Shown here: positions 11,307 through 35,632 of the stretch, piece after piece
How the letters are laid out: the number at the start of each line of letters is the position of its first letter
How positions within the stretch are numbered: the stretch's first letter is position 1
IMG/VR virus record: IMGVR_UViG_3300045747_000270
Location: 1-44,703 of that record
Origin: a virus
Strand: one strand, 5' to 3'
Length of the DNA: 44,703 nucleotides
Program-made: the position numbers and the translations under genes
The notes under the pieces: generated by a model
Databases searched by the model: none
Told to the model about the DNA's origin: nothing
What the model saw: the letters and a program-made list of their open reading frames with translations, nothing else

Positions 11307-11765
11307 CTACACATTTCTAATTAACAATAGGCCTAAGTTAGAAAACTTAAACCATTCCCTACCTGCACGGGTCCAGAGCTCTTTTGCCTCTGGGTGCGGA
11401 TATTCTTCAATAAACACTATGCGTTGGCACGACGTGTTTAGCAATAACTTCGTGCAGGTTATGCACGACGATGCGGTGCAGTATGCCGTATGGATACTCC
11501 ACACATCACGGCACTGGAGCAAAGCGTTTTGTTCTGCGTGAATTGCTTCACAGAGATTAAGCCCCTCGCCCGATGGCAGACCAACCCCTGCACAAGGATG
11601 TTCCTGGCAGTTAGGTTGCCCAGAGGCTGGACCATTGTATCCTGTGGCCAAGACATGATTACGCTGATTGGTCAGTATGCAGCCAACCTTACGACGACTA
11701 CAAGAGGCCCGGCTAGATGCCAAGACAGCCATAGACATGAAGTAAGTATCGATGTCTGGTCTCAT
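11307..11765 (-). CDS. Deoxycytidylate deaminase
   Basis: 152 residues from ATG at 11765, which overlaps the preceding stop by ATGA; a GTG at 11777 is an alternative start. The zinc site is HAE (76-78, catalytic Glu78) with CITC (Cys101, Cys104). The usual Pro before the first Cys is replaced by Ser. Additional cysteines lie at 53, 58 and 72, and the insert NCQEHPCAGVGLPSG is typical of phage and ComE-type dCMP deaminases. It converts dCMP to dUMP for dTTP synthesis and drains dCMP in the same operon as a dCMP hydroxymethylase-type enzyme. Confidence 0.85.
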   Translation of the reverse strand: MRPDIDTYFMSMAVLASSRASCSRRKVGCILTNQRNHVLATGYNGPASGQPNCQEHPCAGVGLPSGEGLNLCEAIHAEQNALLQCRDVWSIHTAYCTASSCITCTKLLLNTSCQRIVFIEEYPHPEAKELWTRAGREWFKFSNLGLLLIRNV

Positions 11766-12577
11766 GATACAAGCCACTTTCCAAGTTCACCAGTGTTGGA
11801 CATGTCTTTTCCACGACTAGCTATGATTTTCAATGCCTCAATCGAGGTGCAAAACGGCATCTCAACTTCTTCGTACCCATCAGGTCCTGCACGTAAAATA
11901 TCCGCCACCATCTCGAAGTGACGCTCATATATGTGACTAGACATCGCGGTGATAGTCATATTTCCGCAAGCCAAGTAATGGTGTTCGGCTTGCAGGACCC
12001 CAAAAACTAGACGATACAGGAAGGCGAACGTAGGGATGTCGGTACCTAAACCAAAGATCTGGTCGCTAGACCGCATGTGAATAGACATATTCAGTTCGCC
12101 ATTGCGGATACGAAAACCGACACTCTCCGTACACACAGTATCCACCGTTTCCGGCTTCATGTGCTCTTTGCTGAGCATAGGAATCACTGCCCTGCGACTA
12201 TCTTTGTCCCGTAACAATTCCATGACCACAGACCAGAACCCTTGTTGTTCACCGAACCAGAATTGGCCGTAGTTGCTATTGAAGGTCCCATCAGGATTCT
12301 GCACTGACTCCCACATCTTCGCATGTTGCTTAATGCTTTGGTCATATTTGTTGGCCGTCAACTTCCACAGCATTTCCTTCTTGAAATACTCGAAGTTATA
12401 TTTACGATCTATGAAGGCCATAAATGGAAACAGAGGACTGACAGTTAACTGCAAGTCCTCTACTTCTGCGATGGTAAACCCTCTGGGTTTTACCAGGTGA
12501 CCGTGAGACATTGTCTTGTCAAACATCTCCAGGAAAGCCACTCTGTTCTGGTTAGCTAAGAGATCCATTTCTTCCAT
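11762..12577 (-). CDS. dCMP hydroxymethylase-type enzyme (thymidylate synthase fold)
   Basis: 271 residues; an ATG at codon 4 has better spacing from AGGAG. The thymidylate synthase fold is recognised by catalytic Cys149 (TVCTESVGFRI) and HMRSSDQIFGLGTDIPTFAF at 167-186. Aligned with the E. coli thymidylate synthase segment [20 protein letters not shown], the Asn that selects dUMP (Asn177) is Asp180 here. That Asn to Asp change is the known hallmark of dCMP hydroxymethylases such as T4 gp42, which add CH2OH from methylene-tetrahydrofolate to C5 of dCMP. The following kinase, NTP pyrophosphatase and carbamoyltransferase fit a modified-cytosine pathway. A dUMP-using variant is less likely. Confidence 0.8.
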   Translation of the reverse strand: MEEMDLLANQNRVAFLEMFDKTMSHGHLVKPRGFTIAEVEDLQLTVSPLFPFMAFIDRKYNFEYFKKEMLWKLTANKYDQSIKQHAKMWESVQNPDGTFNSNYGQFWFGEQQGFWSVVMELLRDKDSRRAVIPMLSKEHMKPETVDTVCTESVGFRIRNGELNMSIHMRSSDQIFGLGTDIPTFAFLYRLVFGVLQAEHHYLACGNMTITAMSSHIYERHFEMVADILRAGPDGYEEVEMPFCTSIEALKIIASRGKDMSNTGELGKWLVS

Positions 12578-13068
12578 GCTCCTAAGTTGAACGCCATATC
12601 CATAGCCCGCTCGATTACAGACTCGTCTGGCGTAATGTAATTATACACCAAGTGAGGTGTACTTTTAAACAATTGATCGTAGGACTCGATGTAATTGTGA
12701 CCATTCAATTTGATGTTGGCCAAGGCTTCAGCCGTATCGTATGGCTTAACCTCATGACTATCGAGTTTCAATATGACATTTCGTGGTGGGCGACAGTAGA
12801 TGATCACACAGCATTTTGTGAAAACCATCCTGTCTAAGTACGACATGTAGGCATGGTCAAATAAACGACCCTTGTAAACCTGTGAGGAAATACATGTGAC
12901 CCTGTCCATGACGATAGGATTACGGCACTCACGTAGTTGGTTGTCCAGGCAATTTTGCTCCTCGCCCCACGTTTTGGGGCGAGGTCCTGGGTGCACTATC
13001 TCTAGTCCAAACTTCTTCGCCAACGTGGATTTTCCGGAATTATCCATGCCTTCCAGGATGATAGCCAT
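12556..13068 (-). CDS. Deoxynucleoside monophosphate kinase
   Basis: 170 residues. The P-loop is GMDNSGKST (7-15) and a second conserved region is PIVMDRVTCISSQVYKG (52-68, DR motif), as in thymidylate kinase-like enzymes. The lid region is short. In this operon it probably phosphorylates hydroxymethyl-dCMP, possibly with dTMP, towards the triphosphate. It overlaps the hydroxymethylase start by 22 bases and begins at the stop of the next gene upstream (TAATG), so the three are translated together. Confidence 0.75.
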   Translation of the reverse strand: MAIILEGMDNSGKSTLAKKFGLEIVHPGPRPKTWGEEQNCLDNQLRECRNPIVMDRVTCISSQVYKGRLFDHAYMSYLDRMVFTKCCVIIYCRPPRNVILKLDSHEVKPYDTAEALANIKLNGHNYIESYDQLFKSTPHLVYNYITPDESVIERAMDMAFNLGAWKKWIS

Positions 13069-13460
13069 TATGACTCCAGGATTTCACCAATGCGGTGTTC
13101 AGGAGGAACCCAGCCTTCAGGCTTGATAGCGTCAGCGGCGGAGCCGTCACCACGACTAGCTTTAACACCAAGCTTTTTCTCCATATTGGCTTCATGGACC
13201 GCGGTGCAGCAACGGTTGATCTGGTCAGCTGTCATGCCCAGTTTGTACAGAGCGCCCATGGCGAAGTACTGCAGGTCAATCAAGGCATCGATCTGCCCAA
13301 TGTAGTCAGCAGCTTGTGAAGCTTCAATGAATTCATCGACCTCTTCTCTGAGACACTTGACAGTGATCTCAAATTCGGGGAAAGACAGAGGGCATTGAAT
13401 CCTTGGATGGATTTTGAGGACTTGTTGATTGAAGTCAATAACCTGGTGAGCGAAAGTCAT
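13068..13460 (-). CDS. MazG-like all-alpha NTP pyrophosphatase
   Basis: 130 residues. The helical core has REEVDEFIEAS (about 39-49; the EExxE metal motif) and IDALIDLQYFAMGALYKLG, matching the all-alpha NTP pyrophosphatase superfamily (MazG, dimeric dUTPase and dCTPase). The C-terminal tail contains GWVPPEH as in phage PRA-PH-like proteins. In a hydroxymethyl-dC phage it could hydrolyse dCTP to dCMP, feeding the hydroxymethylase and keeping plain C out of DNA. That substrate is inference. Confidence 0.7.
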   Translation of the reverse strand: MTFAHQVIDFNQQVLKIHPRIQCPLSFPEFEITVKCLREEVDEFIEASQAADYIGQIDALIDLQYFAMGALYKLGMTADQINRCCTAVHEANMEKKLGVKASRGDGSAADAIKPEGWVPPEHRIGEILES

Positions 13461-13461
13461 T

Positions 13462-15084
13462 TTAGTTCCTTATGATGAAAGTACGAAAGTCTCTGCCTGG
13501 AGCCACAGCCCTCTGCTTAGTGTGAGTACCCTTGATTTGAGATTCACCCAAAACAATAGGCACGCCGTGGAAGTTGTAACTCGTATTGATCAGTGGACCG
13601 AACGCGTTCACAAGAGCTAATAAATGTGGATCGTCCGTGATTTGCGGTCTGCATGTATGCACTCGCAAATCTGGATAATAATGTGCACCGCCAAACAGGT
13701 CACTTTCTTTGCCTGGTCTGAAATCGCGGGTACAGATCATATATCCCAATGACTTATGGATCTTGCTTACATCGATAAACAAATCTACGGCCTGCTCTGC
13801 ACTCATGACGAGTGCGAAGGGCATCTCATTAGTGCGGTCATTAATCTCATTGATGGTCTCACCAATAGATGAGTAAGGCAAAGCCAATGTGGTGGTATTA
13901 CATAAAGCACGAGGGCCGAATTCCATCGCACCTCGCACGATATTAACAAAACCGATCTCACTCAGTTCGTCGACTATAGGACCCATGGCGGTATCCAGGT
14001 CTTCAAACGAAACCATCTGTATATCGTCACATGCGAAGTTCAAATCACGATGCCCCCAGAACAAGTGTTCAGGCCACTCAAGATCACCGAAGTATCGCTG
14101 ATAAACACCAAGCCCGCAACCTTGATCACCCGCTAACGGCATGATACAAGTCTTTTCAGGTGTGAGTTTTGCCAAGATACTGTTTAACTTCACATTGTAG
14201 AACAGGCCGCCCACTAACAACAGGTTCGTGGGCGCAAAGTTATGGAAAATAGTAACCATCACTTCCTCAACCACATGTTGTACAAAGTAAGAGATGATGC
14301 AGCGCTTGTCGTGAACTGATGCCCCGCTGGCGTCCATTTCAATGAGGACTCTCTGCAACAAGACATCTATACGGGCTTGCGTCTCTGTCAGTGCAGTGGC
14401 CATCAATAATGGGTCTGTCTCTTTATCGATCTTGCTGTGGAAGATATTGTCGACCCATACCTTTGCTGTATCAAGGACGATACTGTTCAGTTTAAGGACA
14501 TTATACCCCAGTTTATGCAGGTGCACCTCGTAGGCCAACATCTTGTATTCATGGTTGTGCATCTTCATGCCCAAGAATGCTGTGGCATATTGATATAATA
14601 GGCCTAATGATTTTTCAAATCCGAACCAGCGGTTAAGCAGTCTATAACTACCTCGATGAACTTCATAAACAGAGATGCACTCGCCTGACGAGCCGAACCC
14701 GTCGGCCACAATGGCGGTATATGTGTTGGCGAAATCGTCCCCCGCAAAAACCACGGCCGATTCGAGGTGACTGTCGTGATGACTGAATTCACGATCAAGT
14801 GAGAGTACTTCACAATGTGGCATCAGTTTGACCAGAAAATCAGGATCCCAGTACTTATTAGGCTTAGGAAGATCATGATCCAGAAACCAATGACCGACGC
14901 ACACGCTCGTGTCAGAAGGCAGAGGAAATCGTTTATTGATCTCATTGATAGCGTCAGTAGGGAAATGTGAATCGGACTTCACAGTAGAGAATCGCTCTTG
15001 TTCGTACCCACAAATGACTTGACCGTCAACGATGAGTACTGCAGAGCTATTGTGACCTAGAGTCAGGGCCAATGCTGTTGTCAT
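13462..15084 (-). CDS. NodU/CmcH-family O-carbamoyltransferase
   Basis: 540 residues, full length for the family. N-terminal domain: LTLGHNSSAVLIVDG (8-21) with YEQERFSTVKSDSHFP; middle: NLLLVGGLFYNVKLNS and MPLAGDQGCGLGVYQ; C-terminal YrdC-like domain: RGAMEFGPRALCNTT near 382-395 and INTSYNFHGVPIV near 497-509. These are the hallmarks of NodU, CmcH and TobZ enzymes, which transfer carbamoyl from carbamoyl phosphate through carbamoyl-AMP to a hydroxyl. A related phage enzyme has been reported to carbamoylate 5-hydroxymethylcytosine, and the neighbouring hydroxymethylase-type gene makes that the most likely role. A small-molecule substrate is the alternative. Confidence 0.85.
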   Translation of the reverse strand: MTTALALTLGHNSSAVLIVDGQVICGYEQERFSTVKSDSHFPTDAINEINKRFPLPSDTSVCVGHWFLDHDLPKPNKYWDPDFLVKLMPHCEVLSLDREFSHHDSHLESAVVFAGDDFANTYTAIVADGFGSSGECISVYEVHRGSYRLLNRWFGFEKSLGLLYQYATAFLGMKMHNHEYKMLAYEVHLHKLGYNVLKLNSIVLDTAKVWVDNIFHSKIDKETDPLLMATALTETQARIDVLLQRVLIEMDASGASVHDKRCIISYFVQHVVEEVMVTIFHNFAPTNLLLVGGLFYNVKLNSILAKLTPEKTCIMPLAGDQGCGLGVYQRYFGDLEWPEHLFWGHRDLNFACDDIQMVSFEDLDTAMGPIVDELSEIGFVNIVRGAMEFGPRALCNTTTLALPYSSIGETINEINDRTNEMPFALVMSAEQAVDLFIDVSKIHKSLGYMICTRDFRPGKESDLFGGAHYYPDLRVHTCRPQITDDPHLLALVNAFGPLINTSYNFHGVPIVLGESQIKGTHTKQRAVAPGRDFRTFIIRN

Positions 15085-15126: not shown

Positions 15127-15963
15127 TTACCATTTACCCAGTACGTCGTCCACACCCTTGTTAGAGGTGGATTTTGTGTCAGCAATCGTGGCGTCCACAG
15201 TCTGCGTTGCTTCTTTGACAGAAGGCAAAGCTTTTGGCTTTTCACGAGCATCTTCCAGCAAAGGAGCTGCGGATGCGCTGCCAATGTTCCAGTCACGAGC
15301 AATGTTGCGATCAAGAGCAGACTTGCCCGTTTTCTCATCCAAGAAGCCGAGCATCTCGAATTCCAACATTGGGAACTCAGAATCTTCCATTGTGATTTGA
15401 GTAATCACAGCAGAAATCGGGTACCCATTGGTTTTCAATTCACGGCCATACTCAGACACATTCTTCAGAGAAGTAACCGGGATGCCCATAGCAAACACAG
15501 TACCGTCGATGTCTTCAGGCAAGGCCAACCAAACACGTTTGCTGTCACGACAAGCTTTTGATTTCTTGCCAGAACGAGAAGTGGCGGAGCCGAACTGATT
15601 CTTAGGACATGTCTGACAACGCTGCGCTTGTGGGGTGGTCACCCAACCATCAGGCGCAATACCATCAGAACTGGCACACGTAGGCGGAGAACTGTCACCA
15701 CTGTTGTAAGTACCCTCGTAGAAGGTCTTGATAAACAAACCAGCGCCGGGCTCCACAGCCAAGATCACTGCATTCAGTTCATCGGACGGTTTACGAATCT
15801 CTTCACCCCCTTCCACCAAACGGAACTTGCGGCCACGCAAAGAGACACGTGGGATGGAGATGCTGCTTGAGGCAAGACTGTCTGCTTCAGCATTCGCACC
15901 TTGACTAGCCATGAAGGCCTTCAGATACTCTGGTATTGCTACCGCCGTAGTTTTATCTGTCAT
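15127..15963 (-). CDS. Zinc-ribbon protein, probable single-stranded DNA-binding protein
   Basis: 278 residues. The central part holds Cys residues at about 96, 115, 118 and 138 (PPTCASSDG, QRCQTCPKN, SKACRDS), a probable zinc site. It is framed by beta-rich segments starting with ISIPRVSLRGRKFRLVEGG near 34-52. The C-terminal 50 residues are low complexity and end in GVDDVLGKW, an acidic-hydrophobic tip like those of SSB proteins. It lies among replication genes, and proteins of this build are commonly annotated as phage SSB. Function rests on these features only. Confidence 0.55.
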   Translation of the reverse strand: MTDKTTAVAIPEYLKAFMASQGANAEADSLASSSISIPRVSLRGRKFRLVEGGEEIRKPSDELNAVILAVEPGAGLFIKTFYEGTYNSGDSSPPTCASSDGIAPDGWVTTPQAQRCQTCPKNQFGSATSRSGKKSKACRDSKRVWLALPEDIDGTVFAMGIPVTSLKNVSEYGRELKTNGYPISAVITQITMEDSEFPMLEFEMLGFLDEKTGKSALDRNIARDWNIGSASAAPLLEDAREKPKALPSVKEATQTVDATIADTKSTSNKGVDDVLGKW

Positions 15964-19067: not shown

Positions 19068-19535
19068 TTATTTTACAGGTTGAGTAATTCTTCGTTTCTG
19101 GACATATGCCGACCAGCAAGACTTACAGTATGAGTTAAGTCCGCCGGACTTCCTTTGTCCAAAGCTAGATGTGGAAATAAGAAGGTTACACATCCTGCAG
19201 CGTTTAACTTCGTCATTATCTTGCTGATTTAGGGCCTTCTCTCTAGACTTTAGATTCTCTGATTGAGTGCATAGCCTCAAATTACTCACGGCATTGTTGG
19301 TTTTGACCATGTCTAAATGATCTACCTGCGTACTGGAGTCAGACAAATCGAGACCTAAAAAGGAGGCGGCCATTAGTCTATGCACATAAAGTGTAGTAGG
19401 ATATTCTTCGCCTTCTTTATATAGTCCTACAGTATCATATCCTCCGTAATTTCCAGGCTTTAGAAATCTTCCTCTAAGTCCCTTTATACGACTAGATTCA
19501 AAAATTTCGTATCGCTCATATCCAGGTATCTTCAC
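19068..19535 (-). CDS. HNH homing endonuclease with NUMOD4 and C-terminal zinc ribbon
   Basis: 155 residues. N-terminal NUMOD4-like IPGYERYEIFESSRIKG, then an HNH core with His52, Asp72-His73, Asn81 and Asn85 (VDHLDMVKTNNAVSNL). The C-terminus has Cys113, 116, 137 and 140 in CxxC pairs, forming a zinc ribbon. It lies between the polymerase and Cas4-like genes, overlapping the polymerase by ATGA: a free-standing mobile endonuclease placed in a conserved replication cluster. It shares its architecture with the gene at 35156. Confidence 0.85.
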   Translation of the reverse strand: MKIPGYERYEIFESSRIKGLRGRFLKPGNYGGYDTVGLYKEGEEYPTTLYVHRLMAASFLGLDLSDSSTQVDHLDMVKTNNAVSNLRLCTQSENLKSREKALNQQDNDEVKRCRMCNLLISTSSFGQRKSGGLNSYCKSCWSAYVQKRRITQPVK

Positions 19536-35155: not shown

Positions 35156-35632
35156 GTGCGAACTATACCTGGGTACACTAATCTATATTCTCTCGACGAT
35201 GATGGTCGAGTGTATAGTCATGTATCCGGGATTTATCTAAAACCAGTGGTGAATCGTCGTGGTTATCTATACGTCGGTCTACGCAAGAATGGAAAAACCA
35301 CCAACTTCTTTATTCATAGACTAGTGATGACAATACTAAAGGGTCAAGTTATTCCGGAAAATATGGAAGTAGACCACGAAGACAAAAACAAACAGAACAA
35401 TCGTCCTGACAATCTGAGAATTCTGAGTCATAGAGATAATACTCTACACCATCACAATCGTTTAGGTGCAGATACGGAAACCCAAAAATTTTGCTGTACT
35501 TGCAAGAAGTTAAAGTCCAGAACGGTGTTCGGATTTCAGGCGAGTTCAACAGATAAGCTAGATGGCTCGTGCAAACCATGCATGAGAGTATATAAAAGTC
35601 AACCTAAAATAGGAGAATCATCGTGCCTGTAA
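35156..35632 (+). CDS. HNH homing endonuclease with C-terminal zinc ribbon
   Basis: 158 residues, GTG start. NUMOD4-like IPGYTNLYSLDDDGRVYSHV, HNH core His54, Asp73-His74, Asn82 and Asn86 (VDHEDKNKQNNRPDNL), and Cys113, 116, 139, 142 as zinc ribbon. Same architecture as the gene at 19068 but diverged. It lies between terminase and portal genes, overlapping the portal start by 10 bases, a common place for phage homing endonucleases. Confidence 0.85.
   Translation: MRTIPGYTNLYSLDDDGRVYSHVSGIYLKPVVNRRGYLYVGLRKNGKTTNFFIHRLVMTILKGQVIPENMEVDHEDKNKQNNRPDNLRILSHRDNTLHHHNRLGADTETQKFCCTCKKLKSRTVFGFQASSTDKLDGSCKPCMRVYKSQPKIGESSCL

Follow-up and report, generated by a model that had tools for sequence, protein, structure and literature searches.

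Does the phage behind IMG/VR virus record IMGVR_UViG_3300045747_000270 carry the genes to replace cytosine in its DNA with a hydroxymethylated and then carbamoylated base? We analyzed the whole record (44,703 bases, the window), in which the replication genes lie on the minus strand, while the plus strand encodes the terminase, portal, head, and tail proteins. Read along the minus strand from 15084 to 11307, five genes follow in a row, overlapping or abutting, preceded by a gene for a conserved protein. The features are as follows.

15127..15963, minus strand: Cys-rich conserved protein upstream of the carbamoyltransferase, 278 aa, C-terminus DDVLGKW (adjoins the carbamoyltransferase gene in 21/60 loci)
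13462..15084, minus strand: NodU/CmcH-superfamily carbamoyltransferase (CT), 540 aa (Pfam, PHROGs, identity to the proven enzyme, tree, residues)
13068..13460, minus strand: MazG/PRA-PH-type NTP pyrophosphohydrolase, 130 aa (PF01503; DR2231 the nearest solved relative by sequence)
12556..13068, minus strand: thymidylate-kinase-like dNMP kinase, 170 aa (phrog_761; AlphaFold2 model and Foldseek)
11762..12577, minus strand: predicted dCMP hydroxymethylase (HMase), thymidylate synthase (TS) fold, 271 aa (Thymidylat_synt, T4 gp42 match, active-site residues)
11307..11777, minus strand: dCMP deaminase, 156 aa from GTG (PF00383, phrog_174, PDB 2hvv/4p9c)

An earlier note on this DNA had listed a TS-fold enzyme with Asp180, a dNMP kinase, a MazG-like protein, and a full-length NodU/CmcH CT; matches in Pfam, PHROGs, and the PDB located all four where it had placed them. 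It omitted the dCMP deaminase, though its start coordinate, 11307, is the end of that gene. The translational linkage that it had described agrees with the junctions: a 1-nt gap between the CT and MazG genes, a 1-nt overlap between the MazG and kinase genes, and a 22-nt overlap between the kinase and HMase genes. The HMase and deaminase genes are joined by an ATGA overlap if the deaminase begins at the ATG at 11765. This start, which gives a protein of 152 aa, is more likely than the GTG, because the homolog in another locus (L009) opens with the same MRPD and because of the sequence itself (the ATGA overlap with the HMase stop). Downstream of the cassette are genes for a DUF6378 protein, an ATP-dependent DNA ligase, and an Rv2179c-like exonuclease.

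The window also contains two HNH endonuclease genes of the same PHROG families. One (19068-19535, minus strand) adjoins the DNA polymerase gene, and the other (35156-35632, plus strand) is located between the terminase and portal genes. These are probably homing endonucleases.

The encoded enzymes

The TS-fold enzyme matches Thymidylat_synt (E 2e-17). Its top PDB match is the T4 dCMP hydroxymethylase (1b49, E 3e-17); the best true TS has an E value of 9e-9. Cys149, Thr150, and Asp180 correspond to positions 146, 147, and 177 of E. coli ThyA. Asp180 aligns with the active-site Asp of T4 gp42 and with Asn177 of ThyA, so the Asn-to-Asp change of dCMP hydroxymethylases that the earlier note had read at this residue is confirmed. 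Compared with T4 gp42 and E. coli ThyA, the protein is identical to gp42 at 14/14 active-site positions and departs from ThyA in having Asp for Leu at 143, Thr for His at 147, and Asp for Asn at 177. The features expected of a dCMP hydroxymethylase, a TS fold, the catalytic Cys, and Asp replacing Asn177, are all present. Positions 177 and 147 are also the two top positions dividing modified from unmodified contigs (Yang et al., PMC8670742). These data support the prediction that the enzyme is a T4-gp42-like dCMP hydroxymethylase.

The CT is full length, with matches to Carbam_trans_N (E 5e-17), Carbam_trans_C (E 7e-18), and phrog_1601 (E 2e-66). Both domains are complete and keep the metal-site and nucleotide-binding residues (H102/H103/H106, D128, D320). 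The metagenomic work to which the earlier note refers, on a phage CT that converts 5hmC to 5-carbamoyloxymethylcytosine, exists and agrees with the note's account of it (Yang et al. 2021, eLife 10:e70021, PMC8670742). The enzyme described there came from a sewage phage contig and is the only biochemically proven 5hmC carbamoyltransferase. It acts on 5hmdC in DNA, preferring single strands and performing poorly on double strands, and on 5hmdCTP; it is inactive on 5mdCTP and 5hmdUTP and shows no context preference (PMC8670742). PF00303, PF01503, and PF00383 are listed as neighbors of such CTs, and these domains are enriched in cytosine-modified contigs (PMC8670742). Taking the proven sequence from the print of PMC8670742, we found 38% identity to the CT in the window, end to end. 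The two share a specificity triad: I382, C395, and T397 occupy the positions of W408, G421, and R423 in TobZ, a numbering that we infer from motif spacing (W+13=G, +15=R), and the proven enzyme likewise has Ile, Cys, and Thr. Both CTs also have TS, PRA-PH, and dCMP deaminase genes as neighbors. The proven CT belongs to another lineage, and its activity was demonstrated, whereas the set described here is complete and linked and is known from sequence.

A tree was calculated from 70 sequences: this CT, the proven enzyme, 58 more phage-type CTs, and 10 outgroup CTs. This CT and the proven enzyme fall into a clade of 60 (support 100/100, stem 2.14) and, within it, into one 15-row subclade (support 95/97); the closest join of the proven CT is weak (83/32). 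The CTs sampled from elsewhere (plasmid, PKS-linked, archaeal, alphaproteobacterial, cyanophage) fall outside the clade. Thr397 occurs in 60/60 clade members vs Arg in 10/10 outgroup CTs, and Asn415 in 60/60 vs Lys in 10/10. The earlier note had named a grouping with antibiotic or Nod-factor enzymes as the result that would speak against its reading, and in the tree the CT sides with the proven 5hmC carbamoyltransferase. A reading as a NodU, antibiotic, or sugar CT (Nod factor, antibiotic, LPS) is rejected on this placement among the CTs sampled and on the absence of Arg at the TobZ R423 position.

The cyanophage CTs named Nol-like, from P-SSM2 (L073), S-SSM7 (L006), and C48C1 (L074), lie outside the 5hmC clade. 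No HMase was found near them in the stretch of sequence examined, and the P-SSM2 CT sits among heptose and sugar genes.

The kinase matches phrog_761, thymidylate kinase (E 7e-11), and had no match in Pfam. It contains the P-loop GMDNSGKST and the motif DRVTCIS. Its AlphaFold2 model (pLDDT 89) has a TMPK-like fold, with Foldseek matches to YorR and TMP kinases (E 3e-6 to 1e-3), and its substrate is probably 5hmdCMP. The MazG-like protein matches PRA-PH (PF01503, E 4e-10), and its nearest solved relative by sequence, DR2231, is named MazG-like. We take DR2231 to be a dUTPase. At the level of the family, the protein in the window is a probable dCTPase and/or dUTPase; to call it a dCTPase specifically would be a guess. 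The deaminase matches PF00383 (E 4e-19) and the dCMP deaminase 2hvv (E 2e-18). For the 278-aa upstream protein, the AlphaFold2 model was poor (pLDDT 60), and Foldseek gave no significant match (E no better than 0.09). The protein ends in an acidic/aromatic tail, as do many ssDNA-binding proteins; possibly it binds single-stranded DNA, which would fit the preference of the CT for single strands.

Related loci and phages

Loci were found by scanning IMG/VR and GTDB contigs with the CT alone; CT-bearing isolate phages were added, and some loci are near-duplicates. Since only the CT was used to collect them, the co-occurrence of CT and HMase is not circular. A same-strand TS-fold gene of the HMase type lies at most 3.5 kb from the CT in 55 of the 60 phage-clade loci, this locus not counted. 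Of the remaining five, four are truncated where their contigs end; in L031, the fifth, an Asp177 enzyme (L087) is encoded at another site of the same contig. Cys146 and Asp177 are invariant among the linked TS-fold proteins (62/62). No TS-fold gene was found near CTs from outside the clade in the five loci with flanks of at least 2.5 kb. The other genes are less constant: among the 60 CT loci, the deaminase is present in 38, the kinase in 33, and MazG in 25, and some loci without this kinase family carry another P-loop gene in its place.

The order CT-MazG-kinase-HMase-deaminase recurs in Xanthomonas phage Xp15, in the three Acinetobacter phages Effie, HHU4, and MD-2021a, and in dozens of IMG/VR contigs, which argues that the arrangement is not due to chance; Bacteroides phages have a looser form. 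The CT is 55% identical to that of Xp15 and 46% to those of the Acinetobacter phages. These isolates are annotated without a cytosine-modification function. Xp15 has a gene for a thymidylate-synthase-complementing protein, and the MazG-like protein of the Acinetobacter phages is longer.

The 5hmC pathway of T4 (gp42 HMase, gp56 dCTPase, gp1 kinase, cd deaminase, glucosyltransferases) follows the same logic, and its HMase and deaminase are homologous to those found here. T4 tailors by glucosylation, whereas this cassette is predicted to do so by carbamoylation, and its NTPase is of the MazG/PRA-PH type. No match was made between the kinase and T4 gp1.

Stenotrophomonas phage AXL3 has homologous MazG, kinase, Asp177/Thr147-type TS, and dCMP deaminase genes in the same order (gp27-gp31; L096:2677-5819). 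It has no CT; a SAM-dependent methyltransferase gene sits in its place. The methyltransferase arrangement was found in six more loci (L097, L098, L109-L112), with the four core genes not all seen in every one; among the AXL3-type loci, Asp177 of the TS-fold gene beside the methyltransferase was established for AXL3 alone. AXL3 DNA is resistant to 35/37 restriction enzymes, and the two cutters both have A/T-only sites (PMC7504290). Because this DNA resists enzymes with G/C-containing sites, the annotation of the AXL3 "thymidylate synthase" as a dTMP-making enzyme is probably wrong. This resistance, together with the presence of the same core with a methyltransferase in the CT position, suggests that the four-gene core probably makes 5hmdC and that the tailoring enzyme is exchangeable. 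A wider interpretation is that MazG, kinase, HMase, and deaminase form a hypermodification cassette with one exchangeable slot, filled by the CT here and by a methyltransferase in AXL3-type loci (possibly giving 5-methoxymethyl-dC), and that in some relatives a second TS-fold paralog might carry out a further substitution at the 5-methylene, with the carbamate as the leaving group. We consider this interpretation plausible, while stopping just short of calling it probable.

A TS-fold paralog is found near the CT in L005 (10450-11259), L041, L044, L047, L050, and L051. It keeps the nucleotide-binding residues and Asp177, and carries M, L, or I at E58, Y at W80, L at G173, and usually N at D169; most of the changed positions contact folate. 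A canonical HMase lies nearby in L005, L041, L050, and L051. The paralog possibly performs a second, folate-independent step. In L034, L035, L038, L039, L056, and L057, an HMase variant that overlaps the CT start carries E58Q and D169E and, except in L056, K, E, or R at Y209. On the 230-kb contig of L057, L092 is in addition a canonical HMase, and L075 is a true ThyA (His147, Asn177). Three loci with a CT and a TS-fold neighbor (L061, L062, L063) come from contigs binned in MAGs of Acidimicrobiia, Epsilonproteobacteria, and Patescibacteria; these are probably phage contigs within those bins.

Predicted pathway and alternatives

The cassette very probably serves to replace the cytosine of the phage DNA with 5hmC, to which a carbamoyl cap would then be added. 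The HMase would attach a one-carbon unit, taken from methylene-tetrahydrofolate, at C5 of dCMP, and hydration would yield 5hmdCMP. The phage kinase and the host NDK would convert this to 5hmdCTP for incorporation by the phage DNA polymerase. Meanwhile, the MazG-like enzyme may clear competing dCTP (and/or dUTP), giving back dCMP, and the deaminase would turn surplus dCMP into dUMP for thymidylate. From carbamoyl phosphate and ATP, the CT would make carbamoyl-adenylate and carbamoylate the 5-hydroxymethyl group, on 5hmdCTP and/or on single-stranded DNA near the fork. The resulting 5-carbamoyloxymethylcytosine would conceal cytosine from host nucleases. The reading of the earlier note, 5hmdC carried on to 5-carbamoyloxymethyl-dC, is supported by the clade and identity of the CT, the gp42-like residues, and the near-universal pairing of CT and HMase. 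We infer the modification itself: which base this virion contains, how complete the replacement is, and that it protects the DNA. The papers that we found gave no nucleoside measurements for this phage or any CT-bearing phage isolate. The shield against host nucleases that the note had proposed is suggested by analogy, through T4 and the restriction data for the related AXL3 cassette.

Asp177 shows a preference for dCMP only, and the sequence tests used here do not directly part hydroxymethylases from methylases; an engineered Asn-to-Asp TS yields 5mdCMP (cited in PMC8670742). The TS-fold enzyme could on these grounds be a dCMP methylase making 5mdC, as in phage XP12, with the CT acting on a sugar, a host metabolite, or tRNA. 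We consider this very unlikely: the closest solved relative of the enzyme is the T4 hydroxymethylase, and its near-universal pairing with the CT clade is sensible only for a hydroxyl-bearing product, the proven CT being inactive on 5mdCTP. Even smaller is the probability that deaminase, TS, and TMP kinase are an ordinary thymidylate supply next to an unrelated CT of the cell-surface or antibiotic type. The database names (thymidylate synthase, thymidylate kinase, Nol-like carbamoyltransferase) point that way, and PMC7504290 reads the AXL3 genes in this manner. Asp at 177 in every linked enzyme, where ThyA has Asn, largely refutes this explanation; the CT clade is separate from the NodU, PKS, and cyanophage CTs, and some of these phages have a true ThyA elsewhere, as in L075.

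Within the hydroxymethylation pathway, the modification could also be partial or conditional, with the CT acting on only some of the 5hmdC or with 5hmdC as the main base of the virion. The proven CT is poor on double-stranded DNA, and more than half of the loci lack MazG. Since MazG and the deaminase are missing from part of the family, the replacement of dC need not be complete. Against partial modification, the proven CT has no context preference and also takes 5hmdCTP, and the gene set at this locus is full. We regard partial modification as unlikely, though a serious candidate, and retain the complete 5hmC pathway with its carbamoyl cap as the preferred reading.

A pathway of this kind was already published in 2021 and has been little studied; the locus in the window is a complete, well-linked new instance. 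5-Carbamoyloxymethylcytosine was described only in that year, by enzyme assays and not from a phage isolate. The cassette is conserved and occurs in cultured phages (Xp15, Effie, HHU4), so the base is directly testable in virion DNA. The cassette provides a simple genomic marker of phages that are likely to escape cytosine-dependent restriction.
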